Below are positions 3,849 through 20,696 of a stretch of DNA of 38,215 bases, in pieces; the first letter of the stretch is position 1; each line of letters begins with the position of its first letter. The position numbers and the translations under genes are program-made. The stretch lies in IMG/VR virus record IMGVR_UViG_3300036820_000045, positions 1 through 38,215 of that record; one strand, written 5' to 3'. The stretch comes from a virus. The notes under the pieces were generated by a model. It was not told the origin of the DNA, made no database searches, and saw nothing but the letters and a program-made list of their open reading frames with translations.

Positions 3849-4016
3849 AGCAATATCTCCTTACTGATTTGATTAATATAAGAATAGACAACAAGGCTGC
3901 CTACAACTAGAGCTAATCCCCCAAAGTTGTGTAAGTCTTTGACTACTCAAGTTGTAAGCATTTACACATAATACATATTTCAGCTAAAAACGCAATAGCT
4001 AAAAGAGTGGTATACC

Positions 4017-4079
4017 TGTGTATAAATCTGTGTATAAGTATGTGGATAAGTTGTTATAACTTGTAAATTATTATCCACA
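4017..4079. promoter_or_regulatory. Cluster of four DnaA boxes
   Basis: TGTGTATAA at 4017-4025, TGTGTATAA at 4029-4037, TGTGGATAA at 4041-4049, and the reverse-oriented TTATCCACA at 4071-4079. All four match the consensus TTATNCACA on one strand or the other. The first three are spaced exactly 12 bp apart. Four perfect matches within 63 bp are very unlikely by chance, so binding by host DnaA is a reasonable inference. Confidence 0.75.
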
Positions 4080-4080
4080 A

Positions 4081-4122
4081 CCCCCGTACCACGTACGGTA
4101 TACCCCCGTACCACGTACGGGG
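4081..4122. repeat. Tandem palindromic element, two copies
   Basis: The 18-bp unit CCCCCGTACCACGTACGG occurs at 4081-4098 and again at 4103-4120, a 22-bp period (about two helical turns). Each unit is an inverted repeat: GTAC arms around CAC, extended to an 8-bp stem (4104-4111 with 4115-4122) in the second copy. It lies directly beside the DnaA boxes. Candidate iterons or an operator for a phage-encoded protein such as the 1092 helix-turn-helix protein. Confidence 0.7.
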
Positions 4123-4317
4123 TAGAAAGAAAATTAAAAAATAATTTTTATTACTATAATAGGGGGCAAAAAACCATGAGGCATAAAAATAACTAACAAC
4201 AATAATTAAAAAAATTTATTATTTATTCGGAAAACGCACCCAGAAATACGGCTAGATAGTCTCCAGGAAGTCCGCCATTAAGACTTTTTTAAAAGATAGG
4301 CATTTGTATAGGGTAGG

Positions 4318-4582: not shown

Positions 4583-4617
4583 AAAAAAAAGGGTGGGGAC
4601 AAATTGACCCTACCCTT
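4583..4617 (-). terminator. Strong intrinsic terminator or attenuator upstream of the 4339 gene
   Basis: On the minus strand AAGGGTAGGG (4617-4608) pairs with CCCCACCCTT (4598-4589) as a 10-bp stem with one G-U pair and a 9-nt loop, followed immediately by eight T residues (4590-4583). This is a textbook intrinsic terminator. It ends only 13 bp before the ATG of the next gene, so it may act as an attenuator. Confidence 0.8.
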
Positions 4618-6857: not shown

Positions 6858-7079
6858 TTATTCTAATAAATCTTTAATATTGTTAAATATTTTTTCCAAG
6901 GTTTCAGTCTTTCGTCGGGCTATCGCCCAATGATTACTTACAAAGCGGTCCACGTTCCTTATTTCTTTTCCTATTTCTTCCATTCTTTCATCTATAAAGT
7001 TTGACCTGCTTTGTAATGTTGCCATTTGCTCTTTAAGTGTTGCCATATCTTCTATTAAACTTTTTAAATCATCTATCAT
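6858..7079 (-). CDS. Small coiled-coil protein, paralogue of the 7804 gene
   Basis: A 73-residue protein starting MIDDLKSLIEDMATLKEQ. Its first 16 residues are nearly identical, in protein and DNA, to those of the 7804 gene (MTDDLKSLIEDMATLKDR), after which the two diverge completely. ATG 7079 is preferred to 7085 because the GGGGGA ribosome-binding site is then 6 bp upstream. It overlaps the 7069 gene by 11 bp. Function unknown. Confidence 0.65.
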   Translation of the reverse strand: MIDDLKSLIEDMATLKEQMATLQSRSNFIDERMEEIGKEIRNVDRFVSNHWAIARRKTETLEKIFNNIKDLLE

Positions 7080-7275
7080 AGCCATTCCCCCAATTATTTG
7101 CGCGTGTGCCCTGTTGCACGGCTTTAAAGAATTTCTGCTTATTCTTGTCTGACTCTATTTCTTGCCACGATTTATGAACGGTGTTCTTATCTCTTATCTC
7201 TGATATATAGCTTTCTATTGAAGCTAGACGGTTATCAATTCTCTGAAGATAGCTTTTAATGTCCCCTATTATCAT
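7069..7275 (-). CDS. Small coiled-coil protein, paralogue of the 7552 gene
   Basis: A 68-residue protein starting MIIGDIKSYLQRIDNRL and continuing ASIESYISEIRDKN. The first 30 residues are almost identical to the 7552 product. The C-terminal half is diverged (KAVQQGTRANNWGNGYDR). The leader GGAGCAACGAGCATG is identical in the two genes. Together with the 6858/7804 pair this shows a duplicated two-gene block. Function unknown. Confidence 0.65.
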   Translation of the reverse strand: MIIGDIKSYLQRIDNRLASIESYISEIRDKNTVHKSWQEIESDKNKQKFFKAVQQGTRANNWGNGYDR

Positions 7276-7289
7276 GCTCGTTGCTCCTT

Positions 7290-7565
7290 TTAAAATAACT
7301 GCGCTATAAGATTTTCGGATAAGTTTTCTTTGAGTATCTTAATTATATGATTTCTTTCATCCCATAATTGGCGCGTTAACTCCATGCTTTCTTTCATCTC
7401 TTTGGTTGCACGTATTAATTCGTTTGCGTGATAGTCAAATCCCGTAATCTTTTGTGATAGAGCTGCCACCTCTATAGTTAGGTTATCTACCGCTGCACGC
7501 GTGCCTATATTAGTACCTTCTATAATTGAGTTCATGTGGTTTATGTCATCGCTAATATCTATCAT
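7290..7565 (-). CDS. Small helical protein of unknown function
   Basis: A 91-residue helical protein (MIDISDDINHMNSIIEGT, then NLTIEVAALSQKITGFDYH and an amphipathic C-terminal helix ending SENLIAQLF). It lies between the two copies of the duplicated block and has no close copy itself, although the MID- start and GGGGGGAGCGAGCATG leader resemble its neighbours. Its start overlaps the end of the 7552 gene by 14 bp. Confidence 0.6.
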   Translation of the reverse strand: MIDISDDINHMNSIIEGTNIGTRAAVDNLTIEVAALSQKITGFDYHANELIRATKEMKESMELTRQLWDERNHIIKILKENLSENLIAQLF

Positions 7566-7782
7566 GCTCGCTCCCCCCGTTAGTTTTGGCTACGGCTTGT
7601 TGCGCCATTTCATAGAACTTCCGCTTAATTTCAAAGAACTTCCGCTTATTCTTTTCGGTCTCTCTTTCTTCCCACGGGCTGGAAGGCGCATTTTTATATC
7701 TTATCTCTGATATGTAGCTTTCTATTGAAGCTAGACGGTTCTCAATTCTCTGAAGATAGTTTTTAATGTCCCCTATTATCAT
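7552..7782 (-). CDS. Small coiled-coil protein, paralogue of the 7069 gene
   Basis: A 76-residue protein starting MIIGDIKNYLQRIENRL and continuing ASIESYISEIRYKN. DNA identity with the 7069 gene is very high over the leader and first 100 bp and then drops. The C-terminal half contains a short tandem repeat (KRKFFEI, then KRKFYEM), visible in the DNA as the repeated AGAACTTCCGCTTA at about 7615-7650; the 7069 gene has only one such unit. Function unknown. Confidence 0.65.
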   Translation of the reverse strand: MIIGDIKNYLQRIENRLASIESYISEIRYKNAPSSPWEERETEKNKRKFFEIKRKFYEMAQQAVAKTNGGSEHDRY

Positions 7783-11540: not shown

Positions 11541-11680
11541 TTTTCTATCTCCTTCGTGATTAGTTGCCTTACAAGCTCCGCCATTGATATATGTTTCTCC
11601 TTAGCTTTTTCAGCGATAGCCTCATAAAGTGAAATACTAACTCTAATATTCAATTGCGTATCCATCTTTTTTTTAGCCAT
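11516..11680 (-). CDS. Ribbon-helix-helix (Arc/CopG-like) DNA-binding protein
   Basis: A 54-residue protein: MAKKKMDTQLNIRVS (the beta strand), SLYEAIAEKAKEKHIS (helix 1), MAELVRQLITKEIEK (helix 2). This is the classic ribbon-helix-helix plan of short dimeric repressors. It overlaps the end of recT by 8 bp and the start of the 11184 gene by 25 bp. The ribosome-binding site GGAGATGTTGAAAA precedes the ATG. It probably regulates one of the palindromic sites in the window (for example the one between 14.40 and 14.42 kb); which one is not known. Confidence 0.75.
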   Translation of the reverse strand: MAKKKMDTQLNIRVSISLYEAIAEKAKEKHISMAELVRQLITKEIEKCYQKIDH

Positions 11681-12476
11681 TTTTCAACATCTCCGCCAGT
11701 TCGTCTTCTTGTGTAGTTTCAGTTGGTTTGTCTTGTTCGAAGCTATCTCCTTCCTGATTAATAATTTTTAAATTGTTTTCTTCTAGTGCAGCGTCTAAGT
11801 TTTGAATGCCTAAATCGCTGTGTTCATCTAATATAGCTGCCGTCTTCATTTCTATAGTCAATGGAAGCCATTTATAGATACGACGTATAGCTGTTTTTAA
11901 TGCCATCGCTTCATAGTCCGTCACCCATGGCCCAGTTTGTGTTTTAGAACGTGCTTTTGCATTGTCGATATCTTGCTTATTTAATACAACATGCTGAGTT
12001 TCACCTCCTACCAGCTTAGCGATAGCATATACTCCTATTACCTTACCTCTATTATTAAGGGTAGGTTTATGTAATATTCTGCTGTCGGTTCCCTCGCAAT
12101 AGTCAAATTGATCATTCTCGTAAATAATCTTTGGAGATACAGAAATAATCCTGTCATTTCTGTAGCACAACTCCAGAAATCCCCGGTAACCAATGATTAA
12201 GTTACACACCCCTTTGTACGGAACTATAAAAGCCGAGTTTAATAAACCTATTTCTAAGCCTAGTTGGGAAGCCATCATCAAAGCACTTACAAAGCTAATC
12301 GGTGTACATTCTTGTAACTTTGGATTGCGTGAAAACTCGGTTAATGCAATCCTGCTTACTCTATCTACAGATAAAGGAGCTGGTAGAATTAACTTTAGCT
12401 GTGGTTTCATAGCCTCAAGTAAAGTTATTAATTGTTTTTTGTTGTCAGTACGTGATTTGCTTGTATCTACTATCAT
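11673..12476 (-). CDS. recT: RecT-family single-strand annealing recombinase
   Basis: A 267-residue protein with clear RecT features: ISFVSALMMASQLGLEIGLL around residues 60-79, the beta-rich core LIIGYRGFLELCYRND, and the signature GPWVTDYEAMALKTAIRRI (182-200) followed by YKWLP. RecT-type proteins anneal single strands made by a partner exonuclease. That partner is the YqaJ gene about 700 bp upstream, with two membrane-protein genes between. The acidic C-terminal tail is typical of annealing proteins. AGGAGTATACAAA precedes the ATG. In phages this pair supports recombination-dependent replication and repair. Confidence 0.93.
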   Translation of the reverse strand: MIVDTSKSRTDNKKQLITLLEAMKPQLKLILPAPLSVDRVSRIALTEFSRNPKLQECTPISFVSALMMASQLGLEIGLLNSAFIVPYKGVCNLIIGYRGFLELCYRNDRIISVSPKIIYENDQFDYCEGTDSRILHKPTLNNRGKVIGVYAIAKLVGGETQHVVLNKQDIDNAKARSKTQTGPWVTDYEAMALKTAIRRIYKWLPLTIEMKTAAILDEHSDLGIQNLDAALEENNLKIINQEGDSFEQDKPTETTQEDELAEMLKNG

Positions 12477-13180: not shown

Positions 13181-14086
13181 TTATTTTAGTAAAAATCTAC
13201 GCTGTGGGCTACCTTCTTTCAGATACTTTACATACAAATCTTGATGATCATATGCAAAAGTTGCTGAATCAAACCTATGAACTGGTCTAGTCTTTTTCCA
13301 AGTTGCCAACACGTTCCCCATTGCGTCAACTAATGTGTCTTTGTCTTTCATTTCTGAAAACACTGATACTTTAAGTAATTCCGCGTCTTTCTCTAATCTT
13401 TTTATGTGCTCGTTAGCAGTTTTTAATAAATTTATTTTTTCTTCCAGGGTAGCTGTAGCAATTAATGGCTCTGGTGTTGTATCTGGGTATGCTTCTATAA
13501 AATCAGTAGTGCTGGTGGGTTCAGGGGGGATGTCTTTTTGTACATTCTCATTCCAAAATTTCTCAGCTCTCGCTAGTAATTGCTTTTCAGCTTCTGCATG
13601 TCTATTGTACTCGTAACATTGCATTGTTCTTGTGCTACAAAAAAATACCGCAACATAAACTTTGTCATATCCTCCAACCGCGCAGTAATGAGCTACTTGT
13701 ATTCGATAGTGAAGTGGAATCATGTTTTTATCACTTCCCCAGCCGTCATCATTATATGCAGTTTTGCATTCTAATATTGCGTTTTCTTTCGTGAGTTCAA
13801 AATCTAAGTTTCCTGCCAGGTAAGGTATATCTTTATGAAATATAGTTTCAGTAGATTTAATAATCTCTTTGCCAGTTTCGTCAGCAAACCATTTACCAAT
13901 ACATGGCTCTACGTAATTACCAAACTTTATATGTGGTAGGTCGCTAATGTCTGGTTGTACTTTCTTGCCGGTTTTGTAGTTCCAAACATTAAAGGCGGTT
14001 TCATAGGGTGACTTGTTACAGATTGCTGCCATGTCAGACCCACCGATGTAGTGTTTACGCTGCTCTAATTGTTCATTCGTTAACAT
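13181..14086 (-). CDS. YqaJ-type (lambda-exonuclease-like) recombination nuclease
   Basis: A 301-residue protein with the YqaJ/lambda exonuclease fold. Motifs: HYIGGSDMAAI (13-22), Glu60 in FGNYVEP, Asp95 in AGNLDFEL, Glu106 and Lys108 in LECKTAY, and Gln130 in YRIQVAHY. This is the E-D-ExK metal site of the PD-(D/E)xK nucleases. It would resect double-strand ends 5' to 3' to make single strands for RecT. The C-terminal 90 residues form a coiled-coil extension. GGAGG precedes the ATG. Catalytic residues appear intact. Confidence 0.92.
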   Translation of the reverse strand: MLTNEQLEQRKHYIGGSDMAAICNKSPYETAFNVWNYKTGKKVQPDISDLPHIKFGNYVEPCIGKWFADETGKEIIKSTETIFHKDIPYLAGNLDFELTKENAILECKTAYNDDGWGSDKNMIPLHYRIQVAHYCAVGGYDKVYVAVFFCSTRTMQCYEYNRHAEAEKQLLARAEKFWNENVQKDIPPEPTSTTDFIEAYPDTTPEPLIATATLEEKINLLKTANEHIKRLEKDAELLKVSVFSEMKDKDTLVDAMGNVLATWKKTRPVHRFDSATFAYDHQDLYVKYLKEGSPQRRFLLK

Positions 14087-14366: not shown

Positions 14367-14390
14367 AGTTCCTCCTTACTCTATTTTTAC

Positions 14391-14429
14391 AATGTATAGC
14401 ATTTGTATATCAAATGCAACTACACACCA
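14391..14429 (-). promoter_or_regulatory. Promoter/operator copy 2 (early leftward promoter)
   Basis: Minus-strand -35 TTGCAT (14419-14414), a 15-bp spacer and -10 TATACA (14398-14393). Between and overlapping them is a palindrome GCATTTG-TATAT-CAAATGC (14399-14417). A 39-bp stretch matches 15993-16031 with only a few differences, so it is a repeated promoter/operator. A start near 14386 would transcribe the exo-recT unit. The spacer is slightly short, so the exact promoter elements are uncertain. Confidence 0.5.
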
Positions 14430-14785: not shown

Positions 14786-15016
14786 TTAACATATATCATA
14801 ATTTGGTTTGTCTTTCATTTGGTTGCCCTTCTTGTGTATGTCAAATTCTTTAAATGCTTTATATATATCGCTCCATTGAGCAGTTTTTCCCGCGGCCAGC
14901 TCTTCCGCGCTTAACAATTCCCGGTCCAATTCTCTTTTGCTCTGACACCACACATCTATAAAACTAAAATCATATTCGACTTTTATTTGTTTTGGTCTCT
15001 TTTTTTGAATAGACAT
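14786..15016 (-). CDS. Small protein of unknown function
   Basis: A 76-residue protein with a basic start (MSIQKKRPKQIKVEYDFSFI), a helical centre (KRELDRELLSAEELAAGK) and a Lys-rich C-terminus. No family is recognised. It begins about 20 bp downstream of the structured RNA at 15036-15151, whose terminator-like hairpin would have to be read through for this gene to be expressed from further upstream. Confidence 0.6.
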   Translation of the reverse strand: MSIQKKRPKQIKVEYDFSFIDVWCQSKRELDRELLSAEELAAGKTAQWSDIYKAFKEFDIHKKGNQMKDKPNYDIC

Positions 15017-15035
15017 AATGATATCCTGCGTGTAA

Positions 15036-15151
15036 CAAAAATATTATTAAAAGTGTGACAATCTACGTGTGGAAGCAATAGACTGTCACAATGCTTGCGT
15101 AGGAAAGTACGGCAACTCTATGAGGGAAATTGCCAGTACTTGTCACAAGCA
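15036..15151 (-). ncRNA. Candidate small structured RNA with intrinsic terminator
   Basis: Transcribed leftward from the promoter at 15158-15186. Three stems: (1) AATGCTTGTG (15153-15144) with CGCAAGCATT (15099-15090); (2) inside it, AAGTAC + GGCAA (15141-15130, one bulged base) with TTGCC + GTACTT (15115-15105); (3) TGTGACAGTCTA (15090-15079) with TAGATTGTCACA (15065-15054), 12 bp with one G-U pair, followed by CTTTTAATAATATTTTTG. Stem 3 would be the terminator. The large loops (15129-15116 and 15078-15066) contain TTTCCCTC and TTGCTTCC, pyrimidine-rich and anti-Shine-Dalgarno-like. It could instead be an attenuator in the leader of the 14786 gene. No known RNA family is recognised. Confidence 0.6.
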
Positions 15152-15157
15152 TTCTGT

Positions 15158-15186
15158 AGTGTATTTACATTTTATAGTTCTGTCAA
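15158..15186 (-). promoter_or_regulatory. Strong sigma70-type promoter for the structured RNA
   Basis: A perfect -35 TTGACA (15186-15181), a 17-bp spacer and TACACT (15163-15158) on the minus strand. The -35 overlaps the stop codon of the 15183 gene. Transcription would start near 15151, immediately before the first stem of the RNA. This is the best promoter match seen in the early region. Confidence 0.75.
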
Positions 15187-15603: not shown

Positions 15604-15834
15604 TTACTCCTTCTCTAATGTAAACCAGTCACTACCTAGCCGTTTATATAATTCTTCTTCAATGCTGGAAGCTGTGTTGCATAATTCAGCAGAGAAGCCT
15701 TTTAACTTGTAAAGCATATTTGTAACTTCAGCCCTATTGCTATCATCTACTTGTATTTTAAATAGCTTCTCTGCTATTCTTGTTGCGTATTTCAATTCAT
15801 CTATTAAATCACATGCGAATATAGTAGCTTTCAT
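15604..15834 (-). CDS. Small helical protein, first gene of the leftward operon
   Basis: A 76-residue protein (MKATIFACDLIDELKYATRI, then NMLYKLKGFSAELCNTASSI). It shares only the MKATI- opening with the 4339 gene. GAGGAGTAATAAATATG is its ribosome-binding leader. Being promoter-proximal to the control region, it should be among the first proteins made after infection. Function unknown. Confidence 0.6.
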   Translation of the reverse strand: MKATIFACDLIDELKYATRIAEKLFKIQVDDSNRAEVTNMLYKLKGFSAELCNTASSIEEELYKRLGSDWFTLEKE

Positions 15835-15865: not shown

Positions 15866-15882
15866 TGTGACACAATGTCACA
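15866..15882. promoter_or_regulatory. Perfect palindrome TGTGACA-CAA-TGTCACA (operator candidate)
   Basis: Seven-bp arms around a 3-bp centre, located in the 5' untranslated region of the first early gene. The same TGTGACA/TGTCACA heptamer occurs three times in the structured RNA region (15054-15060, 15084-15090, 15141-15147). It may be bound by the phage ribbon-helix-helix or MarR-type protein. Confidence 0.55.
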
Positions 15883-15992
15883 TCTTCATAATGCAATTAT
15901 AGAAATGTATAGCATTCTAAACTAGAGCTAATGCCTCAAAGACTTGTAAGCATTTAGCTATTCGTCGTGTGAGATATTCGCTATTCACTTGC

Positions 15993-16031
15993 AATGTATA
16001 TCATTTGTATATCAAATGCAACTACACATCA
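15993..16031 (-). promoter_or_regulatory. Promoter/operator copy 1 (main early leftward promoter)
   Basis: Minus-strand -35 TTGCAT (16021-16016), 15-bp spacer, -10 TATACA (16000-15995), with CATTTG-TATAT-CAAATG between them. It is the same element as 14391-14429, with few mismatches over 39 bp. Transcription would begin near 15988 and run leftward into the early operon. Confidence 0.5.
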
Positions 16032-16084: not shown

Positions 16085-16170
16085 AATATTTTATAAATAA
16101 GCAGGTGAGGAAAGGACGCAAGCAGAAGAAATAAGGCAGCAAATTGTAGATAGTTAATAACATAAGAATG

Positions 16171-16241
16171 TATACTCGCGAGCACCTTTGATTTACAAGT
16201 AACATAAGGAGGGAAGGAGGTAAAATTTAACTTGCGAGTAT
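16171..16241 (+). promoter_or_regulatory. Rightward (late) promoter region with paired operators and a double Shine-Dalgarno tract
   Basis: TATACT at 16171-16176 could be a -10; no good -35 at the right distance is seen, so an activator may be needed. Two near-copies of the palindrome ACTCGCGAGT lie at 16174-16183 and 16230-16239, about 56 bp centre to centre, extended as an 11-bp inverted repeat (16172-16182 with 16231-16241). Between them is the purine tract AAGGAGGGAAGGAGGT (16206-16221): two perfect Shine-Dalgarno sequences without an ATG downstream. Confidence 0.45.
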
Positions 16242-16299
16242 CTAGTCATTATAACATAGCTAGATTGTGTCTATCTACATTTTAAGTTACTATGCACAT

Positions 16300-16560: not shown

Positions 16561-16963
16561 TGAAGACCAAAAACAAATCCCGCGCACTGCAAAACAAGTA
16601 GAAACCCTCAAGAAACATGGTTTTAAACCTGGGAACCGCGCTAACCCCAAGGGCAGACCAACCAACGTAAAACGCATATCTGATAGAGAGCTTAAAGACT
16701 ACTTAGAAGAGTTCTTACAGATGATGACTAAAGTTAAAATGCCAAATAAGAGCACAGAGACCAGGACAGTCTTTGAAGGCATTCTAGCTAGTCTCTGCGC
16801 TAAAGCTTGCACAGGGGACATCAGAGCCATTGAACTTATATTAGACCGCCTCTTCGGTAGGTCAGAACAGAAGATGATTATCACTCACGAAGCAGCTTTA
16901 CAACAAATGCTAGCGAGTACAGATTACTTAGACAATTCAGCAGTTTCAACAATAGATGTATGA
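16523..16963 (+). CDS. Probable small terminase subunit
   Basis: A 146-residue protein with FKPGNRANPKGRPTNVKR near residue 35, the basic G-N-x-A-N-P-x-G-R-P motif typical of a family of phage proteins found next to large terminases (DUF5681-like, from memory), then a helical region ending LILDRLFGRSEQKM. Small terminases recognise viral DNA and feed it to the large subunit. The end overlaps the large terminase start by ATGA. The position directly upstream of terL supports the call, although no classical helix-turn-helix is obvious. Confidence 0.75.
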   Translation: MTILKSDRNLLFSEDQKQIPRTAKQVETLKKHGFKPGNRANPKGRPTNVKRISDRELKDYLEEFLQMMTKVKMPNKSTETRTVFEGILASLCAKACTGDIRAIELILDRLFGRSEQKMIITHEAALQQMLASTDYLDNSAVSTIDV

Positions 16964-18531
16964 GCGATAGAATATCAGAAGCAGAGAGAGCTATACGCCA
17001 TAAGTTAATGACTGACTTTCGATTTTACGCTTACAACTGCTTGAAGATTAGAACAAAGAACATGGGCTTAACTAAGTTTAGACTTAATAAAGCTCAGCTA
17101 TACATGCACGACTTATTGCAGAAGCAAAAGAAATCTTTAAACAAAGTACGCGCCATGTCACTCAAAGGTAGGCAGCTAGGTATCTCTACTTATGTTGCTG
17201 CTCGCTACTATGAGCTAGTTACAACGCACTTCGGACAGCAAGCCTTCATCTTGACGCACTCATTGTCAGCTACTAACAACTTGTTCAGAATCCCCCAGCG
17301 TTTCCATGAGAATGCCCCGCTTTTAGTTAAGCCACAGGTCAGCACTAACAATACTAAGTCGCTCATCTTCGGTGGGCTAGATTCGGGCTACTCGGTGGGA
17401 ACAGCAGAGACTAAGAATATCGGACGGTCAGCTACTATTCAGCTCTTTCATGGCAGCGAGGTAGCATTCTGGCGCAACGCAGCAGAGCATGTGACAGGTA
17501 TCATGCAGGCCATCCCTAGCGAAGGCAGCGAAGTTATTATTGAGTCCACTGCCAACGGCGTAGGCAACTACTTTCATGAGATGTGGCAGAAGTCCGTACG
17601 CGGTGAAACAGAGTTCTTGCCTATCTTCTTGCCATGGTTTTGGGAGACTGGCTACCAGCTGGTGCCACCGCAGGGCTTTACGCTCACAGGGCATGAAAAA
17701 AGGTTGCAATCAATGTATAATCTAACTGAGCAACAATTAGCATGGCGCAGGGGAAAGATAGCAGAGATGTCGATTGGTAATCACGATGGCGAAAAGATGT
17801 TCGCTCAAGAGTTCCCTTGTAACGCTGATGAAGCTTTTGTTGTTAGCACTGATGATGTATTCATTCGTTCAGATATTGTAATGCACGCTCGTAAGTTTAA
17901 AGCTGAAAAGTTTGGCGCGTTAGTTATGGGTGTAGACCCAGCACGCTTTGGGGATGACCGAACCTCAATCATATTCAGGCAAGGTCGCCATGCTTTTGAT
18001 TTAAAATCATATAGCAAAAAAGACACGATGGAAGTAACAGGTATTGTACATACTCTAATTCAAGAGCGTAGGCCATTCCGCGTGTTCGTAGACTTAGGGG
18101 GCTTAGGGGCGGGCATAGTAGATAGACTATATGAACTAGGGCACAGAGACACAGTCGTAGGCATTAACTCTGGAGCTGTTGCATTGAATCAAGAGAAGTA
18201 TTCAAACAAGCGTGCTGAGATGTGGGGAGTGGGCAAGGAATGGTTCGAGGAGTTCTTAGTACAAATTCCTGACAGTGATAGCTTGCACGCTGACCTATGT
18301 GGGATTAAATATACTTATGATTCAAACGGTCGTTTGGTCATGGAGAAAAAGTCAGACATGAAGAAGAGGGGGCTACGCAGTCCAGATGAAGCTGACGCAC
18401 TCTTGCTTACTTTCGCAATGCCGGTATCGCTGAACATGTTAAATGAAACCAGCTCACAACAAGTACTACAAGATTTAGCGCGAGACTTAGCGAATAAATC
18501 TAACGCAAGGAACAATTCTTACAGGATGTAA
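16960..18531 (+). CDS. terL: Large terminase subunit (DNA-packaging ATPase/nuclease)
   Basis: A 523-residue protein. ATPase: a P-loop-like KGRQLGIST (69-77), a Walker B-like LFHGSEVAFW (162-171) with catalytic Glu167, and motif III ESTANG (195-200). Nuclease (RNase H-like): Asp326 in GVDPARFGDD, Asp378 in FVDLGGLGAG, and Asp479 in DEADALLL. All key residues are present. It would pump DNA into the prohead through the portal and cut it. The gene is coupled to the small subunit, and the portal starts 2 bp after its stop. Confidence 0.95.
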   Translation: MSDRISEAERAIRHKLMTDFRFYAYNCLKIRTKNMGLTKFRLNKAQLYMHDLLQKQKKSLNKVRAMSLKGRQLGISTYVAARYYELVTTHFGQQAFILTHSLSATNNLFRIPQRFHENAPLLVKPQVSTNNTKSLIFGGLDSGYSVGTAETKNIGRSATIQLFHGSEVAFWRNAAEHVTGIMQAIPSEGSEVIIESTANGVGNYFHEMWQKSVRGETEFLPIFLPWFWETGYQLVPPQGFTLTGHEKRLQSMYNLTEQQLAWRRGKIAEMSIGNHDGEKMFAQEFPCNADEAFVVSTDDVFIRSDIVMHARKFKAEKFGALVMGVDPARFGDDRTSIIFRQGRHAFDLKSYSKKDTMEVTGIVHTLIQERRPFRVFVDLGGLGAGIVDRLYELGHRDTVVGINSGAVALNQEKYSNKRAEMWGVGKEWFEEFLVQIPDSDSLHADLCGIKYTYDSNGRLVMEKKSDMKKRGLRSPDEADALLLTFAMPVSLNMLNETSSQQVLQDLARDLANKSNARNNSYRM

Positions 18532-18533
18532 TC

Positions 18534-20696
18534 ATGGCAAACAATGAACTTTTAGATACTACACCTCTCAGCAAATTACGCTCAAATGAGCAAAGATTAA
18601 ACAAGCTCAAGCGAATGGTCAACGATTCAAAAAATTACTTTGATGACAACTTTAAACGTTATGATGACTTCATGCGCTTCACATTTGAGACTGCAATTAC
18701 TACTGAAGATAAGCAAAAGTTAAAGACACTTCAGAAGCCACCCGTTGAGTGCAATATTATAGAAGCCTTTATATCACGTCTTAAGGGTGAGTTCTCTAAG
18801 TATGAGCCGAGCATTGAGGTAAGAGCGTCTGACACAATCAAAGCTAACGCACTTACACCAGAACTATTAAAACAAATCGAAGTTATCAATGGTCATCTTA
18901 AAGCTGTATTCGATAATTCAGCTAATGACGCAATGGATAGTGGAGTCTACGCTGAAAGTATAGGTGGTGGCTTCTCAGCTGTCGAAGCATACACCGAATA
19001 TGAACACACCATGTCGTTCGACCAAGAGATTAAAGTTAAGAAAACATTTGAGCCTACACTCACAGGCTTTGACCCTCTCGCTCGCGAATCACACAAAGGC
19101 GATGGCAACTATTGTTTCACTCTATACCCATATACTCGTGATGAATTTGAATCAATTTACGGCAAAGAAGCTACGGCGAACATGAAGTTTACACGCAGCG
19201 GAGTAGCTGCCGAGTTTAATTGGAGCTATCAAAACGGTACGCAGCAAATAGTATTAATGGGTGACTTATACTTTAAAGTTAAGAAAGAAGAGAGAATATG
19301 CGAGCTATCTAACGGTCTAGTTATTCTGCAAAGACAATACGACAAGATAATGAAAGAATGGCAACTCTTTAATTCAGAAGATTTTGTAATGCAGCCTCCA
19401 ATTGTTGTGCGTAAACGTAAGACAATGATAGAGACTATAGAACGTTATACATTTTGTGAAGATAAGATTTTATCGCACGAGAAAACTATTTATAAATACT
19501 TACCAATTGTTTTTGTCGATGGCAACAGCGTTGTGTTAAAAGAGTTTGGCAGTACTAGCTCTAAACAAGTAACCCGTCCGATTGCATATCATGCCAGAGG
19601 CATTCAGCAGCTTCTAAACTTCTGTATCCAAACCATGGGTGCAGAGATTGAAAACATGGTACAGCACAAGATGATTGTTGCTGTTGAAGCTATCCCGCCA
19701 GCTTACGTTGACGCTTACAAGAATGTACAAACCCCATCGAACTATGTTTACAACTCATTCTATAAGGATGACCCAACCATACGCCTAGACCCACCGCGTG
19801 AAGTACAGCGCACCCAGATACCATCTGTAATTGAAAACATGATAATGAACAGCACAACTATATTTCAAAACGTAGTTGGTAGCTATGACGGTATTCTTGG
19901 TGTTAGCAGTAAAGAAATCTCAGGCGTGGCAATTCAACAGGGGGCGTTACAATCTAACGCCGCCGCCCTTCCTTATTTACTTAACTTTGTACGGGCGCAA
20001 ACTCGGATTGCTCAAATAATCATCGACTTGATACCAAAGGTTTATAAGGGAGAACGCAAACTACCTATTATTAACCAAGAAGGTAAGCGAGAGTATCAAG
20101 TTATTAATTCGCCAGATGACCCTAACTCTATCAGCATGGACTATGACAGTGAAATGTTACAGATTAAGATAGAATCTACAGTTAACAGCGCGATTCAAAA
20201 ACAAGTAGCTCTACAACAGTTGACTTCATTAGCTTCTGCTATTCCTCAGCTTGGCGAAGTAATCGTTGGCGCAGGATTAGAAAACATCTTAGACAACCTA
20301 GAGATTCGCAACATAGATAGCCTGAAGGCTGCATGTGTTCAATACGTACAGCAGAAACAACAAGAAGCAGCACAACAAGCCCAGCAAGGTGACCCAAGAA
20401 TGCAGCTTCAGCAGCAAGAGCTAGCTTTACAAGCTGAACAAACCGAAGCATTAAAACAAATCGAAGGTGCGAAGATTGAACAACAACGGGAGAAGGCCGA
20501 GGGTGACCTAGCCATCCAAGCAGCTAAAGTTGCAAATGAAAAACGCGCAACTGAAATTAAGTTCATGGAAATCATGGCTAAGCTACAAATGGAAGAAAAG
20601 CGAATCGATATGGAAGTTGATACCCAGGATTCAGAGAACGCAAGAGCTGCTGTACAAGACGCTATCAAGCTATCTGAGAAGCGTTCTAAACAGTAA
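18534..20696 (+). CDS. Portal protein, P22-like
   Basis: A 720-residue protein, similar in length to the P22 portal (725). The N-terminal part has the typical opening (KNYFDDNFKRYDDFMRFTF), then PPVECNIIEAFISRLKGEF. The central wing and stem include KQVTRPIAYHARGIQQLLNF and QTMGAEIENMVQHKM. The C-terminal 110 residues are Gln/Ala/Glu-rich coiled coil (QQKQQEAAQQAQQGDPRMQL onward), like the helical barrel of P22 portal. Twelve copies would form the vertex through which DNA moves. The location after terL fits. Confidence 0.9.
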   Translation: MANNELLDTTPLSKLRSNEQRLNKLKRMVNDSKNYFDDNFKRYDDFMRFTFETAITTEDKQKLKTLQKPPVECNIIEAFISRLKGEFSKYEPSIEVRASDTIKANALTPELLKQIEVINGHLKAVFDNSANDAMDSGVYAESIGGGFSAVEAYTEYEHTMSFDQEIKVKKTFEPTLTGFDPLARESHKGDGNYCFTLYPYTRDEFESIYGKEATANMKFTRSGVAAEFNWSYQNGTQQIVLMGDLYFKVKKEERICELSNGLVILQRQYDKIMKEWQLFNSEDFVMQPPIVVRKRKTMIETIERYTFCEDKILSHEKTIYKYLPIVFVDGNSVVLKEFGSTSSKQVTRPIAYHARGIQQLLNFCIQTMGAEIENMVQHKMIVAVEAIPPAYVDAYKNVQTPSNYVYNSFYKDDPTIRLDPPREVQRTQIPSVIENMIMNSTTIFQNVVGSYDGILGVSSKEISGVAIQQGALQSNAAALPYLLNFVRAQTRIAQIIIDLIPKVYKGERKLPIINQEGKREYQVINSPDDPNSISMDYDSEMLQIKIESTVNSAIQKQVALQQLTSLASAIPQLGEVIVGAGLENILDNLEIRNIDSLKAACVQYVQQKQQEAAQQAQQGDPRMQLQQQELALQAEQTEALKQIEGAKIEQQREKAEGDLAIQAAKVANEKRATEIKFMEIMAKLQMEEKRIDMEVDTQDSENARAAVQDAIKLSEKRSKQ

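Follow-up and report, generated by a model that had tools for sequence, protein, structure and literature searches.

The 6S/PR'-tR' late leader of phage lambda is a short promoter-proximal RNA that precedes an operon. A second system is the put RNA of phage HK022, whose putL element is made up of two stem-loops that start at +3, directly after the early promoter (PMC9378689). The put RNAs, of about 70-73 nt, act in cis and without any protein: they bind the elongating polymerase and suppress pausing and termination, and putL carries a -10-like NANNAT motif at +23 to +28 (PMC9378689).

The window analysed here is a stretch of 38,215 bases that corresponds to the whole IMG/VR record of a podovirus-type phage. 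The terminase (16960-18531) and a P22-like portal (18534-20696) belong to its rightward late genes, and the early genes form a long leftward run that includes a YqaJ/RecE exonuclease as well as RecT. A structured RNA (Table 1), encoded on the minus strand in the gap between two small early ORFs, resembles HK022 put in having two adjacent stem-loops at the predicted 5' end of an early transcript. The resemblance has limits: put is about 73 nt long whereas the paired region here is about 99 nt, and the NANNAT motif found at +23 in putL is absent, since this RNA has it only at positions 58, 106 and 108. HK022 put forms an RNA triplex in stem I and suppresses terminators via the beta' zinc-binding domain; the likeness proposed here would be one of architecture. 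The lambda leader differs in another way, as it precedes late genes, whereas the RNA of the window precedes early genes and has no strong terminator. With 6S RNA, CsrB and the other Rfam families, the only likeness is that of being a structured RNA.

Predicted promoter and fold of the structured RNA

The first-pass annotation had proposed a promoter made of TTGACA, a 17-nt spacer and TACACT, and all three parts are indeed present on the minus strand. The preceding gene ends within the -35 box (stop codon 15183-15185) and, from this stop to the Shine-Dalgarno sequence and ATG of the downstream gene (15027/15016), there is no ORF of at least 60 aa. A 29-codon ORF does occur at 15152-15063, but it has no Shine-Dalgarno sequence and nothing supports its interpretation as the coding part of a type I toxin mRNA, which was rejected. 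Promoter-like sites are not enriched in the window (41 observed vs 47 expected, or 3 vs 2.0 for those with a perfect -35 box). The promoter alone is thus unremarkable in such an AT-rich sequence, and the unusual part is the coincidence of promoter and structure. The RNA structure starts at most 1-2 nt from the start site predicted from TTGACA-17-TACACT (~15152), and this is the sole structured downstream RNA among the 96 promoter-like sites of the window (z = -9.7, 40 shuffles); the runner-up (z = -2.7) lies on the opposite strand of the same DNA. Since further promoter-like sequences are found upstream (a site at 16277-16248 and a repeat at 15989), this promoter need not be the main one of the operon.

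The minus strand from 15153 to 15055 folds at -43.4 kcal/mol (z = -8.3 with 200 shuffles and -8.0 with 4000), a value that none of the 4000 dinucleotide shuffles reaches (mean -18.8 +/- 3.1 kcal/mol), and no other 120-nt window in the 38-kb record is as extreme after GC correction. The plus strand folds less stably (-35.9 kcal/mol, z = -4.25), 7.5 kcal/mol short of the minus strand, and its fold has 2 G-U pairs vs 5. Both the larger number of G-U pairs and the lower energy favour the minus strand. A CsrB-like reading of the plus strand, suggested by eye from GGA in its loops, was discarded given the weaker fold and a poor promoter.

The earlier description of a non-coding region with a stable fold is borne out, and that of three stems is only partly so. 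The pairing itself is confirmed, but the first two stems (10 bp and 6+5 bp) are not separate, as they make up a single nested hairpin 1: an outer stem of 10 bp (one G-U), a 2x5 internal loop, an inner stem that has one bulge as described but counts 6+8 instead of 6+5 bp, and an 8-nt loop. One unpaired nucleotide or none separates hairpin 1 from hairpin 2, whose 12 bp had been correctly counted but include two G-U pairs instead of one and are completed by 2 further pairs. In the minimum-energy fold, some bases of the loops that had been portrayed as big and C/U-rich are paired. There is good support for a structured RNA that is non-coding and has a plausible promoter of its own.

The first-pass annotation had not recognised this RNA as 6S, CsrB or a member of another known family, in agreement with a search of the Rfam 15 covariance models, which found nothing at gathering scores and one chance-level match at a relaxed E-value. 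No homologue was found with exact patterns of the RNA in IMG/VR, with blastn against phages and plasmids (one 32-base chance match) or with a single-sequence covariance model run on related loci (~1.5 Mb in total) and on the full length of 53 records and genomes. Likewise, no relatives were found when the 76-aa downstream protein and other neighbouring small proteins were used as bait.

Table 1 Features of the structured RNA and its surroundings (coordinates in the 38,215-base window)
Feature	Coordinates	Strand	Remark
Sigma70-type promoter	15158..15186	-	-35 TTGACA 15186-15181, 17-nt spacer, -10 TACACT 15163-15158
Predicted transcription start	15150..15153	-	base of outer stem; predicted 5-8 nt past the -10 hexamer
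Hairpin 1, nested	15090..15153	-	outer stem 15153-15144/15099-15090; inner stem 15141-15127/15118-15105; loop 15126-15119
Hairpin 2	15055..15089	-	12 bp plus 2; 6-nt loop 15075-15070
U-rich tail ACUUUUAAUAAUAUUUUUG	15036..15054	-	weak as terminator; several Rickettsiales leaders have the same first 11 nt after their hairpin 2
Shine-Dalgarno AGGA of downstream gene	15024..15027	-	ATG at 15016
Downstream gene, 76 aa	14786..15016	-	starts the run of genes toward yqaJ and recT
YqaJ/RecE-like exonuclease	13181..14086	-	operon starts of relatives bear a resembling leader
RecT-like annealing protein	11673..12476	-	

Several other features of the record were observed. A 43-nt repeat (93% identical copies at 14387-14429 and 15989-16031) lies upstream of early genes and contains the palindrome GCATTTGATATACAAATGC together with promoter-like hexamers, and is probably a shared operator/promoter. 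The region 16160-16250 is a divergent promoter region in which the inverted arms ATACTCGC and GCGAGTAT flank the double Shine-Dalgarno sequence AAGGAGGGAAGGAGG; read on the opposite strand, the complement of this double sequence looks like an anti-Shine-Dalgarno sequence. The second structured 120-nt window of the record (4041-4160) was considered as a similar RNA and rejected, as it holds DnaA boxes and iterons instead. Four DnaA-box-like 9-mers (TGTGGATAA, TTATCCACA and two TTATACACA) adjoin two CCGTACGTGGTACGG iterons at 4000-4130, a probable replication origin within a 490-bp non-coding gap; only the RNA described here is more structured in this record. A strong intrinsic terminator (GGGTAGGGTCAATTTGTCCCCACCC followed by T8) stands at 4591-4615, amid the leftward early genes, and a two-gene module for small coiled-coil-like proteins is apparently present as a tandem duplication at 6858-7782 (MIIGDIKSYLQRIDNRLASIESYISEIR and MIIGDIKNYLQRIENRLASIESYISEIR). 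Of the eight TGTGACA motifs in the record, five are gathered in a stretch of 830 bp that takes in both hairpins of the structured RNA, and a perfect 17-bp palindrome (TGTGACACAATGTCACA, 15866-15882) occurs in the leader of the gene at 15604-15834. Outside the window, a very strong fold of -54.5 kcal/mol at 42% GC was noticed at L003:1831-1950, inside the ORF of a terminase relative.

Leaders of recE operons in Rickettsiales mobile elements

The YqaJ protein of the window is ~34-37% identical to those of a Megaira (Rickettsiaceae) phage and plasmids and 30-46% identical to those of 80 IMG/VR loci. The DNA upstream of the yqaJ relatives was scanned for promoters with a structured RNA directly downstream; HK022 putL was not picked up by the promoter scan and is therefore unusable as its positive control. 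The RNA of the window ranked top, and nearly all the other matches with z <= -5 are leaders in which a strong promoter is directly followed by a nested hairpin 1, a hairpin 2 and a Shine-Dalgarno sequence. More than 30 plasmids and phages of the Megaira/Rickettsiales type carry such a leader ahead of a related recE (yqaJ) operon, at a distance of 0.8-2 kb (2.9 kb in one case). The members are L009, L011-L013, most of L099-L135, L149, L173, L174 and L177 (for example L009:18523-18700, L011:1880-2045 and L012:1877-2045), and a pattern search recovered the main group in ~30 IMG/VR and genome loci. Most records have one copy, and the copy number rises to two and three in two Megaira plasmids.

The promoter of the family is TTGACA-17-TATACT, or TAGACA-17-TATTAT/TATACT in the L009 group. 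The core of the main group reads A7-CGCC.TAAG...CTTAAGACGTTTT, of which the A-tract and the CG core are invariant. An alignment of 32 leaders was built, with L103 added from the promoter and structure scan. Changes on both sides are seen in 8 of the 27 pairs, a count that none of 500 shuffles equals, although related sequences can inflate such covariation counts. The RNAalifold consensus was too sparse and pairs were counted on the structure of one member, which favours that member in the percentage paired; sliding the pairing partners lowers this pairing from 95% to at most 55%. The outer stem and hairpin 2 differ strongly in sequence in L009, L113 and L114, but their pairing and layout are kept. 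This conserved and covarying leader family of Rickettsiales mobile elements, which is absent from Rfam, is the most solid new result of this analysis.

The RNA of the window shares with these leaders the promoter type, the nested hairpin 1, the hairpin 2, the Shine-Dalgarno sequence and the position upstream of yqaJ, with spacings that agree to within a few nt in the cases measured. Relative to the 3' end of the -10 box, hairpin 1, hairpin 2 and the start codon lie at 5-68, 69-103 and 141 nt in the window, at 2-67, 69-107 and 140 nt in L012, at 7-61, 69-108 and 139 nt in L011 and at 10-75, 78-112 and 151 nt in L009. The distance from promoter to yqaJ is 1101 bp in the window, compared with 1106 bp in L103, 1109 bp in L120, 1110 bp in L012 and 915 bp in L009. 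Hairpin 2 is directly followed by the 11-mer ACTTTTAATAA, which is found a single time in the record (0.15 expected) and is the same in several Rickettsiales leaders, but this AT-rich word was chosen after the fact and its sharing is only suggestive.

Nevertheless, the invariant A7-CGCC...AAG core of the Rickettsiales leaders is missing from the RNA of the window, the covariance model of the family (R2) gives no match at the RNA, its best scores in the region being at chance level, and there is no detectable sequence likeness between the two. No such leader is seen in L093-L098, the records whose YqaJ is nearest to that of the window (42-46% identity), L093 having only ~300 bp upstream; a candidate at 5312-5460 of L095 looked right by eye but was rejected, as it lacks a significant fold (z = -1.1). 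About 4% of shuffles, and a similar proportion of unrelated promoter-like sites, form the shape by itself. Of a further 567 promoter-like sites scanned ahead of yqaJ, 23 have the shape, 2 have z <= -5 and none has both. The RNA of the window is an architectural match to the Rickettsiales leaders, and common descent is not proven.

Possible roles of the RNA

Several interpretations have to be weighed. The best explanation, to which we give about an even chance, is a cis-acting, promoter-proximal, two-hairpin mRNA leader that may act on the polymerase. A cis leader of some kind, whatever its action, is at least as probable and perhaps slightly more so, and an action specifically like that of put is less likely than not. 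The mRNA would start at 15152 +/- 2 and run into the small early genes, yqaJ and recT, and its two-hairpin 5' leader would fold while emerging from the RNA polymerase. The most probable action of the folded leader would be on the transcribing polymerase or on a polymerase-bound factor, and it would, like HK022 put RNA, suppress pausing or termination in the downstream operon. A T8 intrinsic terminator stands further along the leftward genes, at 4615-4591. Protection of the mRNA 5' end is a possible added or alternative effect. We infer the transcription of the leader, the read-through into the operon and the polymerase-directed function.

The first alternative is that of the first-pass annotation: a discrete phage small RNA of ~115 nt that acts in trans, its loops base-pairing with mRNAs. 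An own promoter, a stable fold, a U-rich tail and a 5' end buried in a stem all agree with it. Yet the terminator, which had been called strong, turns out to be weak. Hairpin 2 is followed by the tail ACUUUUAAUAA (UUUUAAU) and then by AGGA and the ATG at 15016, and the element occupies the entire leader up to the Shine-Dalgarno sequence of the next gene. The terminator scan did not accept ACUUUUAAUAAUAUUUUU, and hairpin 2 takes rank 48 in a hairpin-plus-tail ranking, with a tail score of 1.24, whereas the clear terminators of the same phage (4615-4591 and 1871-1899) end in six to eight T. Pairing of the loops with the 59 translation-initiation regions of the phage is no better than that of shuffled loops (within 1 sd, on the phage's own starts). 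The same layout is, in the relatives, that of an mRNA leader. A discrete, terminated, base-pairing RNA that acts in trans accordingly seems unlikely, and the leader reading is better supported than the small-RNA reading.

An attenuator of the downstream gene had been named as the main alternative to a small RNA. What survives of that proposal is the leader element; the classical attenuator, in which hairpin 2 would be a conditionally overcome terminator that yields a short RNA by default, does not fare well. It can draw on the UUUU that comes after hairpin 2 both in the window and in the majority of family members, whose tail scores are mostly 2.5-4.2. The tail score of the window is nevertheless only 1.24, and no alternative antiterminator pairing appears in the minimum-energy or the centroid fold. 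L009, L113, L114 and L122 retain hairpin 2 without a U-run, and termination is therefore not the conserved role of this hairpin. The filled leader, the weak terminator and the conservation of hairpin 2 without a U-run thus disfavour both the discrete small RNA and the plain attenuator, the latter being decidedly improbable.

A slightly lower probability is given to a 5' UTR stabiliser or a ribonuclease-processing hairpin with no effect on the polymerase. The predicted start at the base of the long stem and the intergenic position between small early genes would suit such a role, but it would not by itself demand the two-hairpin spacing, the invariant A-tract and the CG core that the family conserves. 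Finally, an element that works as DNA (operator or recombination dyads) is very improbable: although the stretch from 15.05 to 15.88 kb holds five of the window's eight TGTGACA motifs and TGTGACA/TGTCACA half-sites recur as a perfect 17-bp palindrome at 15866-15882, the minus strand has 5 G-U pairs against 2 and a fold better by 7.5 kcal/mol, and the dyads of the family vary in sequence while their pairing persists.

These comparisons suggest that, when a structured RNA adjoins a promoter, the leader reading should be tested first, before the name small RNA is applied. A bolder and rather unlikely extension of the polymerase-directed leader is that phages and plasmids with recE/recT, including those of Rickettsiales, have widespread polymerase-modifying leaders set by geometry, of which the RNA of the window would be an extremely divergent member, so that protein-free antitermination would reach far beyond HK022-like phages. 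The Rickettsiales leader family supplies a defined group of sequences for such tests, from mobile elements in which gene control has been little studied. If the leader reading is true, the RNA-only control of early transcription that HK022 and a few relatives are known to use would have counterparts in very different elements.
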